Shown here piece by piece: positions 13,201-20,068 of a DNA stretch of 63,649 nt. The DNA comes from Bacteroidota bacterium. GTDB taxonomy: Bacteria > Bacteroidota > Bacteroidia > Bacteroidales > Prolixibacteraceae. Positions within the stretch are counted from its first letter, which is position 1, and the number at the start of each line of letters is the position of its first letter. The position numbers were made by a program, and so were the translations under genes. The stretch covers positions 1 through 63,649 of the forward strand of contig JAUXUF010000129.1 of NCBI GenBank assembly GCA_030684645.1. Direction: 5' to 3'. Under the pieces are notes generated by a model that was given only the letters and a program-made list of their open reading frames with translations, was not told the DNA's origin and did not search any database.

Positions 13201-13983
13201 CTACATTATCAACCTTTCTGCATTTTTACCTATAATAACCATTGCAGGCATGGGGGGGTTCTCGTTTTCGAGAAGTTGTGCAATATTTCCCAGGTTGCCT
13301 TCAAAGGCAACTGCTTCGGGTTGGGAGACTTTACTTAAAATCTGGACTTTGGTTTCCGGCGAAATCGTATGTTCCATCAATCGCTGTGCCAGTTTGACCA
13401 GTTTATTGAGTCCCATAAAAAAGATGACCGGTGAACCTGATTTCAGAACCGAAACGAAAGTTTCGAGGTCGCAAAAATCGCCTTCGCAATAGTGACCGGT
13501 ACCAAATAAAACCATGCTGTTTTTGCCTCTTTCAGTGAGCGGGATACCATAAAGAGATGCCGCTCCAAGCGCTGAAGTAACTCCGGGAATGACTTCGTAA
13601 TTCAATTTGTTTTCGATACAAAAGCGGATTTCTTCTGCACCACGTCCAAAAATCATCGGATCGCCCGATTTCAGGCGGATAATTTTTAATCCTTTCGCTG
13701 CGAAATCAATAATCAATTGATTAATCCAGTCCTGACGTTCAGTCTGATCCTGTCCGTCCTGATAGATTTTACCTACATAAATATGTTGTGCTTCAGGCTT
13801 GGCCAGGTTCAGGATTTCTTTACTGACCAGCGCATCATGCAAAATAAAATCAGCGTCCCGAATACGATTCAGCGCTTTAACAGTCAATAATTCCGGATCA
13901 CCCGGCCCGGCGCCAACGATGGAAATGAGATGGGAAGCCTCCAAAGGTGGGGCGAAATTCGTTTGTTTATTTGCTTTGGTCAT
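13201..13983 (-). CDS. cobA: Uroporphyrinogen-III C-methyltransferase (SUMT)
   Basis: This enzyme methylates uroporphyrinogen III twice with SAM to give precorrin-2, the first step toward siroheme. The protein has about 260 residues with the SUMT hallmarks: VGAGPGDPELLTVKA near the N-terminus, LKSGDPMIFGRGAEE, the VIPGVTSA motif and GIPLTERG. It is the last gene of the sulfite-reduction operon. An upstream in-frame start at 14046 would overlap the preceding gene, but the extension is low-complexity, so the ATG at 13983 is preferred. Confidence 0.93.
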   Translation of the reverse strand: MTKANKQTNFAPPLEASHLISIVGAGPGDPELLTVKALNRIRDADFILHDALVSKEILNLAKPEAQHIYVGKIYQDGQDQTERQDWINQLIIDFAAKGLKIIRLKSGDPMIFGRGAEEIRFCIENKLNYEVIPGVTSALGAASLYGIPLTERGKNSMVLFGTGHYCEGDFCDLETFVSVLKSGSPVIFFMGLNKLVKLAQRLMEHTISPETKVQILSKVSQPEAVAFEGNLGNIAQLLENENPPMPAMVIIGKNAERLIM

Positions 13984-14026
13984 ATTGGGAAAATTCAACT
14001 GGATTGCTCTTTTGTAATTTGACTTC

Positions 14027-14863
14027 TTACTTTTGACTTGATCCAAGACTGTCGAGGTAATCCATCGGGCTGTTGTAAATAAACTGATAGTTGAGCAATC
14101 GAATCAATTTGCTGCTGTCAACGATTTTATAATCTTCGGCCAGATCTGAAACGAGAGGTTCAGGCATTCCTGAAATCCGGGCTGCTTTTCCGTAGAAATC
14201 TCTTTTTAACGGATGTTCCGGACAACAGGCATTCAAAGTTACGCCCCAAAGTTCCTGATCCAGAATGGCCGTGATTATTCCTATGCAATCGTCCTGATGG
14301 ACCAGGTTGACCGGAGTATTTGCTATTGGCCGGAGTGATTTCAGGAGAAACCTTGCCGGATTTCGGTCAGCGCCGATCAATCCACCAAACCGGATGACCG
14401 TCGTATTAAACTCAGATTGACCTTTCAGCAGATTTTCAGCCAGCAAACACGCTTTTCCACTTTCCTTATCCGGAGACGGAATATCATCTTCACACGCGGT
14501 TTGAAAGTTTTCAGGATAAACAGAAGTGGACGAAATAAAAATCACTTTTCGGATTCCGGAATTGAGAATAAAAGGGATCAATCGCCCGATCTGGACAGGA
14601 AAAATCCGTTCAATTCCTTCGATCCGGCGTGGCGGAATGGAAATGACCAGCACCTCAGTTTCAAAAAAATCAGGATCCTCAAGGATTATTTCCGATTCGC
14701 TTAGAATAATGCGATAAGGCGAAATACCTGACTGACTTAGCCCTGCAAGCTTCTCAGGAGAGGTTACTGAACCTTTAACCGAAAATCCTTTCTCCAGCAA
14801 ATGCTTTCCGAGTGGCAATCCTAACCAGCCGCATCCTAATATGGAAACTGTTCCTGTCTTCAT
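14027..14863 (-). CDS. NAD(P)-binding SDR-like protein (YeeZ type)
   Basis: A 278-residue protein with a Rossmann fold: glycine-rich loop ILGCGWLGLPLG near residue 9, then FISSTSVYPE near 110, matching extended SDR/epimerase-like proteins of the YeeZ group. The usual YxxxK catalytic pair of classical SDRs is not obvious. It sits between hemD and cobA in the siroheme operon, which suggests a link with tetrapyrrole or sulfite metabolism, but the substrate is unknown. Confidence 0.75.
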   Translation of the reverse strand: MKTGTVSILGCGWLGLPLGKHLLEKGFSVKGSVTSPEKLAGLSQSGISPYRIILSESEIILEDPDFFETEVLVISIPPRRIEGIERIFPVQIGRLIPFILNSGIRKVIFISSTSVYPENFQTACEDDIPSPDKESGKACLLAENLLKGQSEFNTTVIRFGGLIGADRNPARFLLKSLRPIANTPVNLVHQDDCIGIITAILDQELWGVTLNACCPEHPLKRDFYGKAARISGMPEPLVSDLAEDYKIVDSSKLIRLLNYQFIYNSPMDYLDSLGSSQK

Positions 14864-14872
14864 CGTGATTCG

Positions 14873-15580
14873 CTATTTATTTTCGTCCATCCAGCGTGCA
14901 ATGGAATACTGAACAAACGATAATTCTTCCTGTTCCGGAGAAAGATACACTTTATTGGTGAAAACGCGCCATGCTGCCCGTGCAGTAGAGTTTTCGTTAG
15001 CCAGTATCAGAGAATTCGGATGGGGAAAATTACCAGAGGCTTTGTAATTTTCGATACTGTTTGGACTGAAAAACAGGTAGGCATCAAATATTCCACTCAC
15101 AAACTTTTCGATTGGCGTATTTTTATAGACTTCAAGTTCGGAATACTGCAATCCTGAACTATCAAAAACTGAGCTGATATCGTTATACAACTTATCACCA
15201 TGCAAGAATAAAATAGTCTCGCCCTGGTTCTGAACAATCACTTTTTCAGCAAGTTCGTTTGAATTTGAGAAAGAGGAAACAAAAACAGGCAGTTCAAGTT
15301 TCTGAAGAATTTCCGCCTGTTTCTCCGACCAGCAATACAGCCGGTCTGTTGGAGTTAAACCAAGTTGAGCCGCAAATCGAACCAGCCAATGTGCCGAATA
15401 GGTGCTCGTTACCACCCATTGTTTGCTCTGTCGGGCTACTGTTCCGAAGAAGGACCGATTTGGCTTTTTGTACTCGGTACGTAAAAAAGCTTGCTCGATG
15501 TACTGAATTTGATGCTTTTGCAGCCATTGCCGGGTTTTGCCCGATAATTTTTCGCCGATAAAAAATACTGGAGTTCTCAT
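14873..15580 (-). CDS. hemD: Uroporphyrinogen-III synthase
   Basis: HemD closes and inverts ring D of hydroxymethylbilane to make uroporphyrinogen III, the substrate of the neighbouring CobA. HemD is poorly conserved. The call rests on length (about 235 residues), the two-lobed pattern (TSTYSAHWLVRFA in the first lobe; FFSPNSIENYKASG and LILANENSTARAAW in the second), and position between cysI and cobA. The ATG at 15580 leaves 13 bp after cysI. Confidence 0.82.
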   Translation of the reverse strand: MRTPVFFIGEKLSGKTRQWLQKHQIQYIEQAFLRTEYKKPNRSFFGTVARQSKQWVVTSTYSAHWLVRFAAQLGLTPTDRLYCWSEKQAEILQKLELPVFVSSFSNSNELAEKVIVQNQGETILFLHGDKLYNDISSVFDSSGLQYSELEVYKNTPIEKFVSGIFDAYLFFSPNSIENYKASGNFPHPNSLILANENSTARAAWRVFTNKVYLSPEQEELSFVQYSIARWMDENK

Positions 15581-15593
15581 GATATGAATTTTT

Positions 15594-17294
15594 TTAATGT
15601 TTAAAATCAATTCCTTTTAAGGTTGCTACTACATATTGTTTCCGGATAACGAAATCGCCAAATTTTTCACCGTCGTTGCGGGATTGAGCGTAATCAGCAA
15701 TGATTGGCTTTAATTCAGCCAGAATTTGAGTTTCGGTAAGCGTTTCTTTATAGAGTGTATTCAGACGGGTTCCATTAAAATTTCCACCCAAATAGAGGTT
15801 GTAATGACCTTCTGATTTTCCGACAAAACCTATTTCGGACAGATAAGGCCGTCCACAGCCATTCGGGCAACCCGTCATTCGAATAACGATTTCTTCTTTA
15901 AATAATCCAAATTGGTCAAGAATCGATTCAATTTTGGTAATCAGAGAAGGAAGATACCGTTCTGCTTCGGCAAATGCCAGTCCGCAGGTATTCAAAGCCA
16001 CACAGGCAATGGAATTCTGCCGAAGTCCTGAAATCTCGCCAGGCAACACGCCAAATTTTTTCAGGATCACGCTCACCTTCTTCTTGTCATCAGCCGACAC
16101 ATTGGCAACAATCAGGTTTTGGTTTCCGGTCAGGATAAATTTTCCATCGATGTTTTGAGCAATTTCACGAAGCGCTGATTTAAGATTAAACCCATTTTTG
16201 TCGGCAACACGTCCACCTTCCACAAAAAGTGTCAGGCTCCATTTCGAATCAGCGCCTTTCTTCCAGCCCATACGGTCGCCATTCCGGGTAAAAGAATACG
16301 GTTTGGGCGCCTGAAGTTCGAAGCCAAGGTACTTGTGCAGTTCGTCTTTAAACCAGTCAATTCCATGATCATCGATCGTGTATTTTAGCCTTGAACGTTT
16401 CCGGTTCTGCCGGTTACCGTTATCGCGCTGGACCAGCAGTATTTTTTCGGCTACACGAAGAACCTGTTCCGGCAGACAGAAGCCAATCACTTCGGCCAAC
16501 CGCGGATAAGCTTCGGGCATTCCAAATGTAGAACCCATTCCCCCTCCCACTGCCACATTGTAACCGATAATCCGGTTTTCTTCAACGATCGCGATAAATC
16601 CCAGATCCTGAGAAAACACATCCGAATCGTTGTATGGAGGAATGGCTACCGTAATTTTGAATTTACGTGGCAGATAGCAGTCACCATACAAAGGTTCAAC
16701 CTCTTTTTTGCTGTCGTCAATCAACTTCTGGTCGAGCCAGATTTCGTGATATGCCGTGGTTGATGGCAGCAAATGTTCGCTGATCAGGCGAGCCGTTTCG
16801 TAAACTTCGGCATGCAATTCCGACTCAGCCGGATTCGGATGGCTCATCACATTGCGGTTGACGTCCCCACAAGCTGCAATGGTATCCATCAATCCGGCAT
16901 TAATTCCCTGGATAGTCTTCTTCAGGTTCGACTTGATGACTCCATGCAGCTGAAAGGCCTGACGGGTAGTCAGTTTCAACGTATGATTGGCATATTGATC
17001 CGACAATTCGTCCATCTGAATCCATTGCTTTGGAGTGACTACCCCACCCGGAATTCGAACCCGTATCAGGAATGAATAGGCAGGTTCCAGCTTTTGCCGT
17101 TTTCGCTCTTTTTCCAGATCGCGGTCGGACTGTTGGTACATGCCGTGAAACTTTGAAATTTGGGTATCAGCAAAAGCAAGTGACCCCGTAATCGGATCAG
17201 CCAGACTTTCTACCAGTGTTCCCCTTAAGTAATTGCTTTCGTATTTGATTCTTTCGAGTTCTGAAAGTTCGTCCCAGTTAATTGTATCGCTCAT
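15594..17294 (-). CDS. cysI: Sulfite reductase hemoprotein (beta) subunit
   Basis: CysI reduces sulfite to sulfide with six electrons at a coupled siroheme-[4Fe-4S] centre. The 566-residue length is standard. The cluster ligands are present as CVALNTC (C-x5-C) and GCPNGC (C-x3-C) in the C-terminal half, and the N-terminal SiR half carries [12 protein letters not shown] and [10 protein letters not shown]. It lies directly downstream of the flavoprotein subunit cysJ with siroheme-synthesis genes around it, so the operon makes both enzyme and prosthetic group. Confidence 0.95.
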
Positions 17295-17342: not shown

Positions 17343-19121
17343 CTAATAAACGTCTGTTTGAAAACGTTTCTCTTTTTTCAGCTTTTTGAGGTGTTCCAGA
17401 GCCAGTTCTTCGCTCATGCCACCTTCGGTTTCAAATATCTGAAGCAAGGTTTTCTGAACGTCACGGGCCATCTGTTTCATATCACCACACAGGTAAATAT
17501 TGGCTCCTTGGTTCAACCAGGCAAAAACTTCTTTTTGCTGATCAATCAAACGATGCTGCACGTATAATTTTTCTTCCTGATCGCGTGAAAAAGCTACATC
17601 AATTTTTTCCAGGTAACCATCTTTCAGTAATTTTTGCCATTCTGACTGATATAGAAAATCAGACTGAAAGCGACGCTCACCGAAGAACAGCCAGGTTTTT
17701 CCCTTCAGATTATTGGCTTCGCGGTGCTGAAGAAATGCACGGTATGGGGCCACTCCAGTTCCCGCTCCAATCAGAATGACCGGCGTTTGTCCATTTTCAG
17801 GAAGTTTAAATGCCGGGTTCTTTTCAATAAAAACGGCGACCTTCGAATCAAGATCAATCCGGTCAGCCAGATAGCTAGAACAAGCGCCGGCATGTTGTCT
17901 TCCATTGTGCGAATACCTGACCGTTGAAACAGTTAAGTGAACTTCGTCGCCAACAGCATCCTGGCTTGATGAAATGGAGTACAACCTTGGAGGGAAAATC
18001 CTCAGGATATCAGTCAGATCACTTGCACTAAGTTCGCAGGGAAATTCTTCCAGAAGATCCAGAAAATCATGACCATACAGATAACGATCAAGTTGTTCTT
18101 CGTCTTCAATGATTTCCTGAAGTTTGCCATTTCCGGCTTTTTCCTGAAACTTCCGAATGACATCGCGATTGACAACCGTAATCTCCAGATGGTCAGTCAA
18201 CGCTTCCTTTATGGAAAAAACTCCTTGTTTGAGAGTTACAATTCCGGCTCCGTCTATTTGGGATTGAATTAAAATGCTTTCGACCAATGCCGGAGGATTG
18301 TTGGCCAGAATGCCTACCGAATCGCCTGGTTCATAGGTAATTCCGGAGCCAGCCAAAGATAACTCGATATGGTAAACTTCCTTGTCGGAATCGCGTCCGG
18401 TAATTTTAACTTTATCGAGGACAGTTGCCAGGAATGGATTTTTTCTGGAGTAATTTACGTTCAATCCTGAATTATTTGTCACAAATGTTGATTGGGAAAG
18501 ATTTGCCGATGTTTCTGAGAAAACATTGGAAAACTGATTGATCCAGGATTCAACTTCATCTTCATAATCCACATCCAATGTTAAAACCGGAAGGATGGAT
18601 TTTGCACCTGATTTTGTCAATGCCAGGTCAATGTCGATCCCGGTTTTGCAAAAGAACTTGTAACTTTTATCGCCCAAAGCCACCACTGAATAATTCAGGT
18701 TTGGTAATTCGGGCGAGCGTTTACCGGTAATAAATCCATAAAAATCTTCGGCCATTGCCGGTGGTTCGCCTTCACCATGGGTACTGACAATAAAAACCAC
18801 GTTGGTTTCTGATGCTAATTGTCTGGTTTTGTATTCGTCCAGGGCAATTGACTCTACTTGAATGCCAAGGCTGGAAAGCCTTTCATCCAGATTCCCGGCA
18901 ATAATTTTGCTTCGTCCGGTATGCGTTCCATATAGAATTTTCAACTGTTTTTTAACTGTCACCAGACTGGAATTACTGATGGGCTGAACATTGCCGGACG
19001 AGACCAACAATCCTTGAAAGTAACCATTTAACCAGGTGATTTGCTCACGGTTCAGTCCAGAGGTAAGATTGACTAAGCTACTTATTTGCTGTTCGTTCAA
19101 AAGATTTAATTGAATACTCAT
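17343..19121 (-). CDS. cysJ: Sulfite reductase [NADPH] flavoprotein (alpha) subunit
   Basis: The 592-residue diflavin reductase passes electrons from NADPH through FAD and FMN to CysI. A flavodoxin domain occupies about residues 70-205 (YGTHTGRSK; STHGEGEPP). The FAD-binding domain has the RLYSISSS motif near 395, and the NADPH-binding domain has GAGTGVAPYRAFLQHR near 465. The ATG overlaps the stop codon of the preceding precorrin-2 dehydrogenase gene (ATGA), which suggests translational coupling. Confidence 0.95.
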   Translation of the reverse strand: MSIQLNLLNEQQISSLVNLTSGLNREQITWLNGYFQGLLVSSGNVQPISNSSLVTVKKQLKILYGTHTGRSKIIAGNLDERLSSLGIQVESIALDEYKTRQLASETNVVFIVSTHGEGEPPAMAEDFYGFITGKRSPELPNLNYSVVALGDKSYKFFCKTGIDIDLALTKSGAKSILPVLTLDVDYEDEVESWINQFSNVFSETSANLSQSTFVTNNSGLNVNYSRKNPFLATVLDKVKITGRDSDKEVYHIELSLAGSGITYEPGDSVGILANNPPALVESILIQSQIDGAGIVTLKQGVFSIKEALTDHLEITVVNRDVIRKFQEKAGNGKLQEIIEDEEQLDRYLYGHDFLDLLEEFPCELSASDLTDILRIFPPRLYSISSSQDAVGDEVHLTVSTVRYSHNGRQHAGACSSYLADRIDLDSKVAVFIEKNPAFKLPENGQTPVILIGAGTGVAPYRAFLQHREANNLKGKTWLFFGERRFQSDFLYQSEWQKLLKDGYLEKIDVAFSRDQEEKLYVQHRLIDQQKEVFAWLNQGANIYLCGDMKQMARDVQKTLLQIFETEGGMSEELALEHLKKLKKEKRFQTDVY

Positions 19122-19576
19122 ATTTTTGATTTTTGATTTTCTAAAAATTCTTGTATCTGATTTCGCAGCCGGATTGCCTCATAAACATCCAGAGCATTTG
19201 AGCCAACGGCAACAGTCATATTTCCATCCTGATAAATGGCTGGCGAAACAAACTGACAGAGTGCAGGATTGTCGTGGATATTGACCAGTACTCCTGCCTC
19301 CCGCCCATCCTGTAAAATTTGCCGGTCGAGTGTTTCATTGTTGGTACACGAATAAAGCATCAGGTAGCCTTTCAGATCACTTTTCTCATACTTCTTCTGA
19401 AAACAAACCACTCCGGTTGCGATAACTTCATCCAGAATATTTTCGGCAACTACTTCAAGTTGAGCGTCAAACCGAAGCAGAATTTTAATTTTCTTCAGTG
19501 CTCTTCGACCACCACCTATGATTAGGATTTTGCTATCCGAAATGTCAATGGATATTGGTAAATATTTTTTTTTCAT
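19118..19576 (-). CDS. Precorrin-2 dehydrogenase / sirohydrochlorin ferrochelatase-like protein
   Basis: About 152 residues with an N-terminal NAD-binding loop (ILIIGGGRRALKKI) and the later motif NIHDNPALCQFVSPA, the pattern of CysG-N/Met8p/SirC proteins that oxidise precorrin-2 to sirohydrochlorin. With CobA elsewhere in the operon, the CysG functions are split into separate proteins. I chose the Met at 19576; an upstream in-frame start at 19642 would overlap DUF2061. It lacks the C-terminal methyltransferase of enterobacterial CysG. Confidence 0.88.
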   Translation of the reverse strand: MKKKYLPISIDISDSKILIIGGGRRALKKIKILLRFDAQLEVVAENILDEVIATGVVCFQKKYEKSDLKGYLMLYSCTNNETLDRQILQDGREAGVLVNIHDNPALCQFVSPAIYQDGNMTVAVGSNALDVYEAIRLRNQIQEFLENQKSKI

Positions 19577-19584
19577 CTTCTGAC

Positions 19585-19815
19585 TTAGATTTGATAATCT
19601 GAACCTGTATTTTTCATCTTTCCGAATTTGATCTTGTTCCACGTACGTTCATGAACGTAATACAAGGCCATTTTCGTAAAAACCTCTATTCCTCCAATTG
19701 ATAAAGCGAGTTCAGCTTTGCCTGTTATTATCAGTGCGATTGCAATGGTATCAATGGTTCCGATGGTACGCCATGAAACTGACTTTGCAATGCTCCGATA
19801 TGATTTCTCACTCAT
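19585..19815 (-). CDS. DUF2061 small membrane protein
   Basis: A 76-residue protein with the DUF2061 pattern: KSVSWRTIGTIDTIAIALIITG, then IGGIEVFTKMALYYVHERTWNKI. It has two hydrophobic segments. The family is frequently linked to sulfate-assimilation genes, sometimes fused with them, but its activity is not established. Here it is the first gene of the sulfite-reduction operon, 20 bp after the attenuator-like terminator, so it is the first product made when the terminator is read through. Confidence 0.85.
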   Translation of the reverse strand: MSEKSYRSIAKSVSWRTIGTIDTIAIALIITGKAELALSIGGIEVFTKMALYYVHERTWNKIKFGKMKNTGSDYQI

Positions 19816-19834: not shown

Positions 19835-19869
19835 AAAAAAAAAGCCCCTCTGGAAACCAGAAGAGCTTT
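19835..19869 (-). terminator. Attenuator terminator in the sulfite-reduction operon leader
   Basis: On the minus strand a 13-bp fully paired stem (19869-19857 with 19853-19841, two G-U pairs) closes a TTT loop and runs into nine T (19843-19835). It sits between the Cys-rich leader peptide and DUF2061. Bases 19914-19907 just after the Cys codons (TCAGAAGG) can pair with CTTCTGG in the ascending arm, giving a possible antiterminator of about 8 bp including two G-U pairs. Confidence 0.85.
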
Positions 19870-19892
19870 AAAATATCGTGTTATAAATTCAC

Positions 19893-19970
19893 TTATATCC
19901 TATCAACCTTCTGAAAAGCCAAACACAAACACATACACATCGAAGCGCACATGGTACTTTTTGTATTCAT
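19893..19970 (-). CDS. Cysteine-rich leader peptide of the sulfite-reduction operon
   Basis: A 25-codon frame (ATG 19970-19968, TAA 19895-19893) encodes a peptide with Cys at 8, 12, 14 and 16 and Met at 7, 11 and 13; its core is MCASMCMCLC. It lies about 60 nt into the predicted transcript, and the intrinsic terminator starts 24 nt after its stop codon. Such a run of regulatory codons followed by mutually exclusive hairpins is the classic layout of ribosome-mediated attenuation. With scarce Cys-tRNA, a ribosome stalled at the Cys codons would leave the antiterminator free. The product is probably regulatory only. Confidence 0.75.
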   Translation of the reverse strand: MNTKSTMCASMCMCLCLAFQKVDRI

Positions 19971-20038
19971 TTTTGCTATTTCAGAAGAAAACTTTTTCAT
20001 CAATAAAGGATTTAATTATCTGCAATTATTTACTGCTG

Positions 20039-20068
20039 CAAATGTATGTTCTAATTTCATACTACAAA
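20039..20068 (-). promoter_or_regulatory. Promoter of the sulfite-reduction/siroheme operon
   Basis: On the minus strand TTTG (20068-20065) and TACATTTG (20046-20039) are 18 bp apart, a near-ideal Bacteroidota promoter. Transcription would start near 20032, giving a leader of about 215 nt before DUF2061 that contains the Cys-rich peptide and the terminator. Confidence 0.7.

Follow-up and report, generated by a model that had tools for sequence, protein, structure and literature searches.

A candidate ribosome-mediated attenuator with cysteine and methionine codons ahead of a sulfite reductase and siroheme operon in Prolixibacteraceae

The sulfite reductase and siroheme operon of a Prolixibacteraceae bacterium (Bacteroidota; assembly GCA_030684645.1, contig JAUXUF010000129.1) is preceded by a short frame rich in Cys and Met codons, by an intrinsic terminator and by further RNA arms able to pair with it and with each other. 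On the sequence evidence, this arrangement is most probably (roughly 0.86) a classical ribosome-mediated transcription attenuator sensing Cys-tRNA and probably Met-tRNA too. Comparison among related genomes establishes the leader, its codon enrichment, the four arms, the covariation of arms 2 and 3 (2:3) and of arms 3 and 4 (3:4), the link to the operon and the recurrence of such a leader at cysK. The initial annotation had proposed that a shortage of Cys-tRNA, perhaps also of Met-tRNA, switches the operon on. The recurrence of the element, compensatory changes in the antiterminator, the enrichment of Cys and Met and the Cys leaders of other sulfur genes all speak for the attenuator, while the Met part is plausible and less certain. 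The window, i.e., the whole stretch of DNA analysed, comprises 63,649 nucleotides, and all features listed below lie on its minus strand.

20039..20068, minus strand: promoter-like element TTTG-18-TACATTTG (from its letters; TAnnTTTG recurs before related leaders)
19893..20000, minus strand: predicted leader peptide gene, 35 codons plus stop, MKKFSSEIAKMNTKSTMCASMCMCLCLAFQKVDRI (open frame and relatives)
19974..19987, minus strand: arm 1, partner of arm 2 when no stalled ribosome stands between them (duplex prediction, fold)
19923..19952, minus strand: run of regulatory codons, with the first bases of Cys codons at 19949, 19937, 19931 and 19925 and of Met codons at 19952, 19940 and 19934 (sequence)
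19907..19918, minus strand: arm 2 (CTTTTCAGAAGG), partner of arm 1 or arm 3 (duplex prediction, covariation)
19857..19869, minus strand: arm 3, ascending arm of the terminator and antiterminator partner of arm 2 (terminator finding, covariation)
19835..19853, minus strand: arm 4 and T tract of the intrinsic terminator (terminator finding, covariation, fold)
19585..19815, minus strand: DUF2061 membrane protein, first gene behind the putative attenuator (PF09834)
19118..19642, minus strand: siroheme synthase N-terminal domain, precorrin-2 dehydrogenase type (TIGR01470 over cut-off)
17343..19121, minus strand: cysJ, sulfite reductase flavoprotein (TIGR01931 over cut-off)
15594..17294, minus strand: cysI, sulfite reductase hemoprotein (TIGR02041 over cut-off)
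14873..15610, minus strand: uroporphyrinogen-III synthase, HemD family (PF02602 over cut-off)
14027..14863, minus strand: protein weakly like an NAD-dependent epimerase (no Pfam family; TIGR01179 far below cut-off)
13201..14046, minus strand: uroporphyrinogen-III C-methyltransferase (TIGR01469 over cut-off)

The genes behind the leader serve cysteine supply, namely cysJI and the siroheme genes here, and cysteine synthase or MetY elsewhere. From this layout we infer the following course of events, including translation of the leader, stalling and termination, a response to starvation and a part for Met. RNA polymerase would start near 20033 and a ribosome would begin the leader, probably at 20000. 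With an ample supply of Cys-tRNA (and probably of Met-tRNA), the ribosome would reach the stop codon and cover arm 2, leaving arms 3 and 4 to form the terminator, and the operon would stay off. When charged tRNA is short, the ribosome would stall in the Cys/Met run and split arm 1 from arm 2; the freed arm 2 would then pair with arm 3, no terminator would form, and the sulfite reductase and siroheme genes would be read. Finally, when no ribosome translates the leader, arms 1 and 2 would pair (1:2) and termination would win.

The initial annotation had pointed to a promoter at 20068-20039, and this element holds up. On the minus strand, TTTG (20068-20065) is followed after 18 nt by TACATTTG (20046-20039), a combination that fits what we take to be the Bacteroidota promoter consensus; promoters of this type lie outside the coverage of the sigma-70 promoter scan of the window. 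TAnnTTTG stands within 110 nt ahead of the leader in 48 of 54 related loci, and in all 18 of those from the genus of the window, and it is accompanied by TTG 17-23 nt further up in 27 of the 54. Transcription would presumably start at about 20035-20030. The leader frame is open from the ATG at 20000 to the TAA at 19895-19893, with Cys at codons 18, 22, 24 and 26 and Met in between. The 25-codon frame from 19970 that had been described before, with Cys at positions 8, 12, 14 and 16 and Met at 7, 11 and 13 exactly as stated there, is the 3' part of this 35-codon frame. As judged from the sequences, 20000 is the likelier start, because all 54 relatives have an in-frame ATG 28-39 codons ahead of the stop (in part an effect of the finder, which prefers ATG) and Met at codon 11, which corresponds to 19970, occurs in 28 of 54; the start at 19970 is possible and probably to be replaced. 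The leader peptide matches no known protein family in NCBIfam and Pfam.

The intrinsic terminator extends from 19869 to 19841, with T continuing to 19835. Its description as a perfect 13-bp hairpin is right in the number of pairs and has to be amended in their kind, since 11 are Watson-Crick and 2 are G-U. The earlier observation that bases behind the Cys codons can pair with its ascending arm stands as well: CAGAAGG at 19913-19907, 9 nt behind the last Cys codon, is complementary to this arm. To these elements a further arm is added here, at about 19987-19974, which can pair with 19918-19907 and would thereby enclose the Cys codons. Duplex predictions yield all three pairings, 1:2, 2:3 and 3:4. 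The 1:2 region folds with a z of -3.11 in the window and -4.47 in the related locus L042, and in both folds the Cys/Met run sits in the upper part of the hairpin. A finder for a leader plus terminator, run over 140 tiles of 900 nt from both strands of the window, returned this site and one other.

Since riboswitches with the same terminator logic control sulfur genes in other phyla, a metabolite riboswitch (e.g., for SAM) overlapping a chance frame was considered. The Rfam search gave no match over threshold in the window, nor in nine further loci, and this candidate was set aside; moreover, the conserved part consists of codons and short complementary arms, with no larger conserved fold seen, and the probability of such a riboswitch is close to negligible.

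The element is widespread in the family. DUF2061 was matched in 67 of 140 family genomes, at 78 places in total, of which 70 were examined and eight weak matches left out. By a fixed rule, leader and terminator occur at 54 of these 70 places, in 53 genomes; six rows (L036, L051, L055, L060, L062 and L063) were taken out by hand ahead of the terminator rule. These places cover 64 of the 67 genomes, in ten of which no Cys leader was seen. In several of the leaderless places DUF2061 closely follows another gene and may lie inside another transcription unit. One of the rows taken out, L055, carries a leader of another type, with 26 residues, nine of them Cys, and a long terminator before DUF2061.

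The leader is associated with the operon. This small membrane protein heads the sulfite reductase operon, CysJ being the next gene in 27 of 80 named loci, and the leader accompanies 24 of these 27 against 3 of the remaining 53. The initial annotation had suggested aligning such upstream regions as a check, and the Cys run and terminator do recur in them, both at the 54 family places and in the named loci of the same gene order. The three leader loci in which CysJ was not seen are L079, whose contig ends early, L096 and L139, in which no terminator was found. The list of leaders in named loci was compiled by hand, and L071 and L002 denote a single contig. Most of the closest named matches are titled as Prolixibacteraceae or Bacteroidota metagenome-assembled genomes (MAGs). 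Two loci titled Odoribacter and Chlorobiota (L078, L096) carry the leader and operon genes, and these titles may be wrong. Within the genus, model R1 matches the element at E ≤2.1e-10 in 17 of 23 genomes, the sources of R1 included.

The codon content of the 54 leaders is strongly skewed. Behind the start codon, Cys makes up 12.0% and Met 16.5% of residues, compared with 0.8% and 2.1% in nine window proteins, i.e., an enrichment of about 14-fold and 8-fold, respectively. At least three Cys are present in 48 of 54 leaders, the number ranging from 1 to 6 and rising higher in some class-level leaders, and the motif MCM is present in 50 of 54. It is possible, if somewhat doubtful, that the attenuator senses cysteine alone and that the Met codons reflect spacing or a constraint on the RNA sequence around UGU. 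Cys is the feature common to the cysK leaders and to several class-level leaders with few Met, and the letters of ATGTGTATGTG are conserved nearly base for base across the family, which an RNA constraint could explain. The very excess of Met and of MCM argues against such a sensor, as do four loci (L002, L003, L004 and L070) that retain their Met codons with a single Cys codon left in the run, and the two leaders before MetY, both of which mix Cys and Met. The spacing, read in the light of the size of a ribosome footprint, suits an attenuator. The last Cys codon, taken from its first base, lies a median of 18 nt (range 6-24) from the core of arm 2, and this core likewise a median of 18 nt (range 9-21) from the stop codon in the 54 leaders; stalling within the run would in most cases leave arm 2 free, and a ribosome at the stop codon would cover it.

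Covariation supports a predicted antiterminator that would be mutually exclusive with the terminator. In alignment A3 (MAFFT, 34 of 54 loci), used for the 2:3 and 3:4 statistics, arms 2 and 3 pair in 97.4% of cells, compared with at most 57% for versions slid along. Double-change cells number 21 for 2:3 against a shuffled mean of 8.6 (0 of 500 shuffles, as also for the 2:3 score) and 24 for 3:4, which pairs in 93.0% of cells, again against 8.6 shuffled; because the sequences are related, such cells cannot be counted as separate events. As for the pairs that show a double change, their number, three for 2:3 (80 of 500 shuffles) and four for 3:4 (238 of 500), stays within the shuffle range because few pairs vary. 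A second alignment, A2, holds 47 of the 54 loci, seven near-duplicates being left out; its agreement at the start is partly built in, because segments were cut at the ATG chosen by the finder.

The 1:2 hairpin would protect the terminator when the leader is untranslated. Arms 1 and 2 pair in 340 of 378 cells, compared with a permuted mean of 322.4 (sd 4.0, maximum 335), across 42 of 54 loci, the other 12 having a non-standard arm 1 and being left out of this count; the core columns of the 1:2 analysis are biased because the regular expressions for the terminator and arm 2 favour core letters. Those expressions do not extend to the two 2:3 pairs richest in double changes. Compared with a null model of redrawn synonymous codons, pairing is significant (p<0.05) for 1:2 in 28 of 54 loci and for 2:3 in no more than 7; the recurring Gln-Lys, which already fixes CAG AAG, may account for part of this outcome. 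The leader of the window itself is significant for neither pairing in this comparison (1:2 p=0.11, 2:3 p=0.13).

The covariation also bears on the reading in which the frame is an unrelated small-protein gene with its own constitutive terminator and the operon is driven from behind that terminator. Small genes with terminators are common, and the sigma-70 scan gave a match downstream, within DUF2061 at 19754. An independent terminator, however, would not require arm 2 to covary with arm 3, the same layout recurs at several sulfur genes, and no Bacteroidota-type promoter is apparent by eye in the 19 nt between 19835 and 19815, which makes this reading extremely improbable.

The same genome holds a second leader, MIANFSYMYMCCCYKQCGEGMFSIEI, which is followed by a terminator and cysteine synthase A (G000:C2:62905-63022; L153). 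Model R1 scores it at an E of only 0.02, similar to other places in the genome, the predicted fold of its 1:2 region is no more stable than those of shuffled sequences (z -0.56), and its 2:3 pairing has p=0.08 against shuffles. A similar leader stands before cysK in 8 of 12 further loci of the genus, as judged by eye, and the other four comprise two Ile/Val/Leu leaders, one Cys leader before an OsmC-like gene and one locus with nothing clear. The OsmC-like case (L218) has a leader with Cys and Met before an OsmC-like protein and a trans-sulfuration-type enzyme, with metal-related-looking genes upstream (by eye). Leaders rich in Ile, Leu and Val, each with a terminator, also precede an ilvD-like gene (by eye) at two places in the genome of the window (G000:C407:231-293 and G000:C341:301-363; L264, L265), which speaks for attenuation being in use there. 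CysD- and CysH-like genes of this genome, again identified by eye, have no Cys leader directly ahead. A search of the same genome for His runs gave one place.

Beyond the family, Cys leaders were found across the class Bacteroidia. Among 159 genomes drawn from it, 40 have the sulfite/nitrite-reductase-family protein of the class-level leader loci, the query protein itself being among the 40. Its best NCBIfam matches are to nitrite-reductase-type models, far below their cut-offs, and we infer from the leaders ahead of the gene that it is a sulfite reductase. By a fixed rule, a Cys-dense small frame plus terminator occurs in 17 of the 40 upstream regions, six of which hold two such units. The same rule gave 2 of 140 window tiles including the finding itself (1 of the 139 others) and none of 40 reverse complements. 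The Cys-dense frame alone occurs in 26 of 40 upstream regions versus 22 of 140 tiles and 12 of 40 reverse complements, and some of these 26 frames resemble another small protein, not leaders. Run class-wide at E ≤0.01, R1 matched 81 of 295 genomes. Twenty of 29 matched loci were inspected, of which seven have Cys leaders (L166, L167, L168, L173, L174, L179 and L181); no Cys leader was seen in the remaining 13, and many of the remaining matches may be plain terminators.

Other class-level leaders precede MetY, a peroxiredoxin and cysteine synthase pair, and an aldo/keto reductase (L167). Two Cys leaders stand before DUF2061 in Marinifilum sp. D714 (L091) and in Labilibaculum sp. K2S (L102). Series of two Cys leaders, in most cases with a terminator for each, lie before sulfur-related genes in L167, L168, L173, L174, L179 and L181; the gene behind those of L167 is the aldo/keto reductase, and the leaders of L179 have runs of four and six Cys codons. 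Among the units in series, 2:3 pairing is stronger than in shuffles (p<0.05) in 6 of the 11 evaluated out of 12, so that the tandem reading is only partly supported; the upstream unit of L174 has no 2:3 pairing to speak of. We consider it an even bet that these leaders form a Bacteroidia-wide regulon, in which ribosomes would read Cys and Met supply on mixed leaders before sulfite reductase, cysteine synthase and MetY, often on two units in series, so that two stalls would be needed and the switch would be steep.

Since Cys-rich upstream frames serve copper genes in some proteobacteria, it was also considered whether the leader peptide is itself the sensor, the nascent chain binding copper or another metal or responding to a redox signal. 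Both Cys and Met, in which the peptides are rich, are ligands of soft metals, one class-level leader pair precedes peroxiredoxin and cysteine synthase, and the genes ahead of the leader in L218 look metal-related. The peptide, however, is variable outside the run, with its changing number of Cys, and the genes behind the leaders belong mainly to the sulfite/nitrite-reductase family or encode cysteine synthase or MetY. The exceptions are the aldo/keto reductase (L167), the OsmC-like protein (L218) and the peroxiredoxin (L179), with no metal exporter among the genes inspected. Sensing by the peptide is very unlikely on these grounds, and ribosome-mediated attenuation remains the preferred reading.

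Attenuation of this kind is known from the trp, his, thr and ilv operons of enterobacteria, where leaders with mixed codons, such as that of thr (Thr/Ile), also occur. The element described here resembles these attenuators in having a leader with codons of the product, arms 1-4 and an intrinsic terminator ahead of biosynthesis genes. It differs from them in its Cys and Met codons, in its sulfite reductase and siroheme genes, in occurring in Bacteroidota, and in the position of arm 1 well upstream of the regulatory codons, which sit within the 1:2 hairpin. Among cysteine leaders, the mycobacterial polycysteine leader was reportedly the subject of work by Canestrari in 2020. The portion available of one account, which cites that work, treats it as translation attenuation (PMC13236596). 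Cys leaders ahead of cysteine genes are described in Mycobacterium and other Actinobacteria, with no obvious terminator hairpins in the mycobacterial regions according to the sections at hand (PMC1262725). Like the present element, these leaders are short frames that contain Cys runs and precede cysteine genes; as far as those sections go, the difference lies in the conserved terminator and antiterminator found here.

Another parallel is uORFC-8-2 before cysS in Rhodobacterales, a predicted leader in which two Cys codons stand in tandem and which comes with an intrinsic terminator (PMC8632094). Both are computational predictions of a Cys-codon leader with an intrinsic terminator; in the available part of PMC8632094, no Met run is mentioned for uORFC-8-2. 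The element of the window belongs to another class of bacteria, has DUF2061 and not cysS as its first gene, and has no Rfam match. Within the phylum, strong indications of attenuation by leader peptides ahead of amino-acid operons are reported for Flavobacterium psychrophilum, with no cysteine leader named in the main text as available (PMC9723704), and the accessible passages of a further paper mention leader-like small frames in Bacteroides thetaiotaomicron (PMC7366714). According to the relevant passage of PMC2965389, its authors knew leader-peptide systems only from Proteobacteria and Actinobacteria before their own case in Firmicutes. The initial annotation knew of no Cys leader described in Bacteroidota, and likewise no description was found in the PMC literature, in so far as its texts were available, a coverage outside which most subscription journals lie. 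Judged by the literature searched, the kind of mechanism is known, and what is new lies in the combination of Cys with Met codons, in the operon targeted, in the phylum and in the tandem cases.

Translation in Bacteroidota mostly starts without Shine-Dalgarno sequences. Under the proposed attenuator, a stalled ribosome would be able to act on the polymerase in these bacteria, and the tandem form, if real, would be a natural two-stage attenuator. The element offers a directly testable control mechanism for assimilatory sulfur metabolism in Bacteroidota, for which the papers searched describe none.
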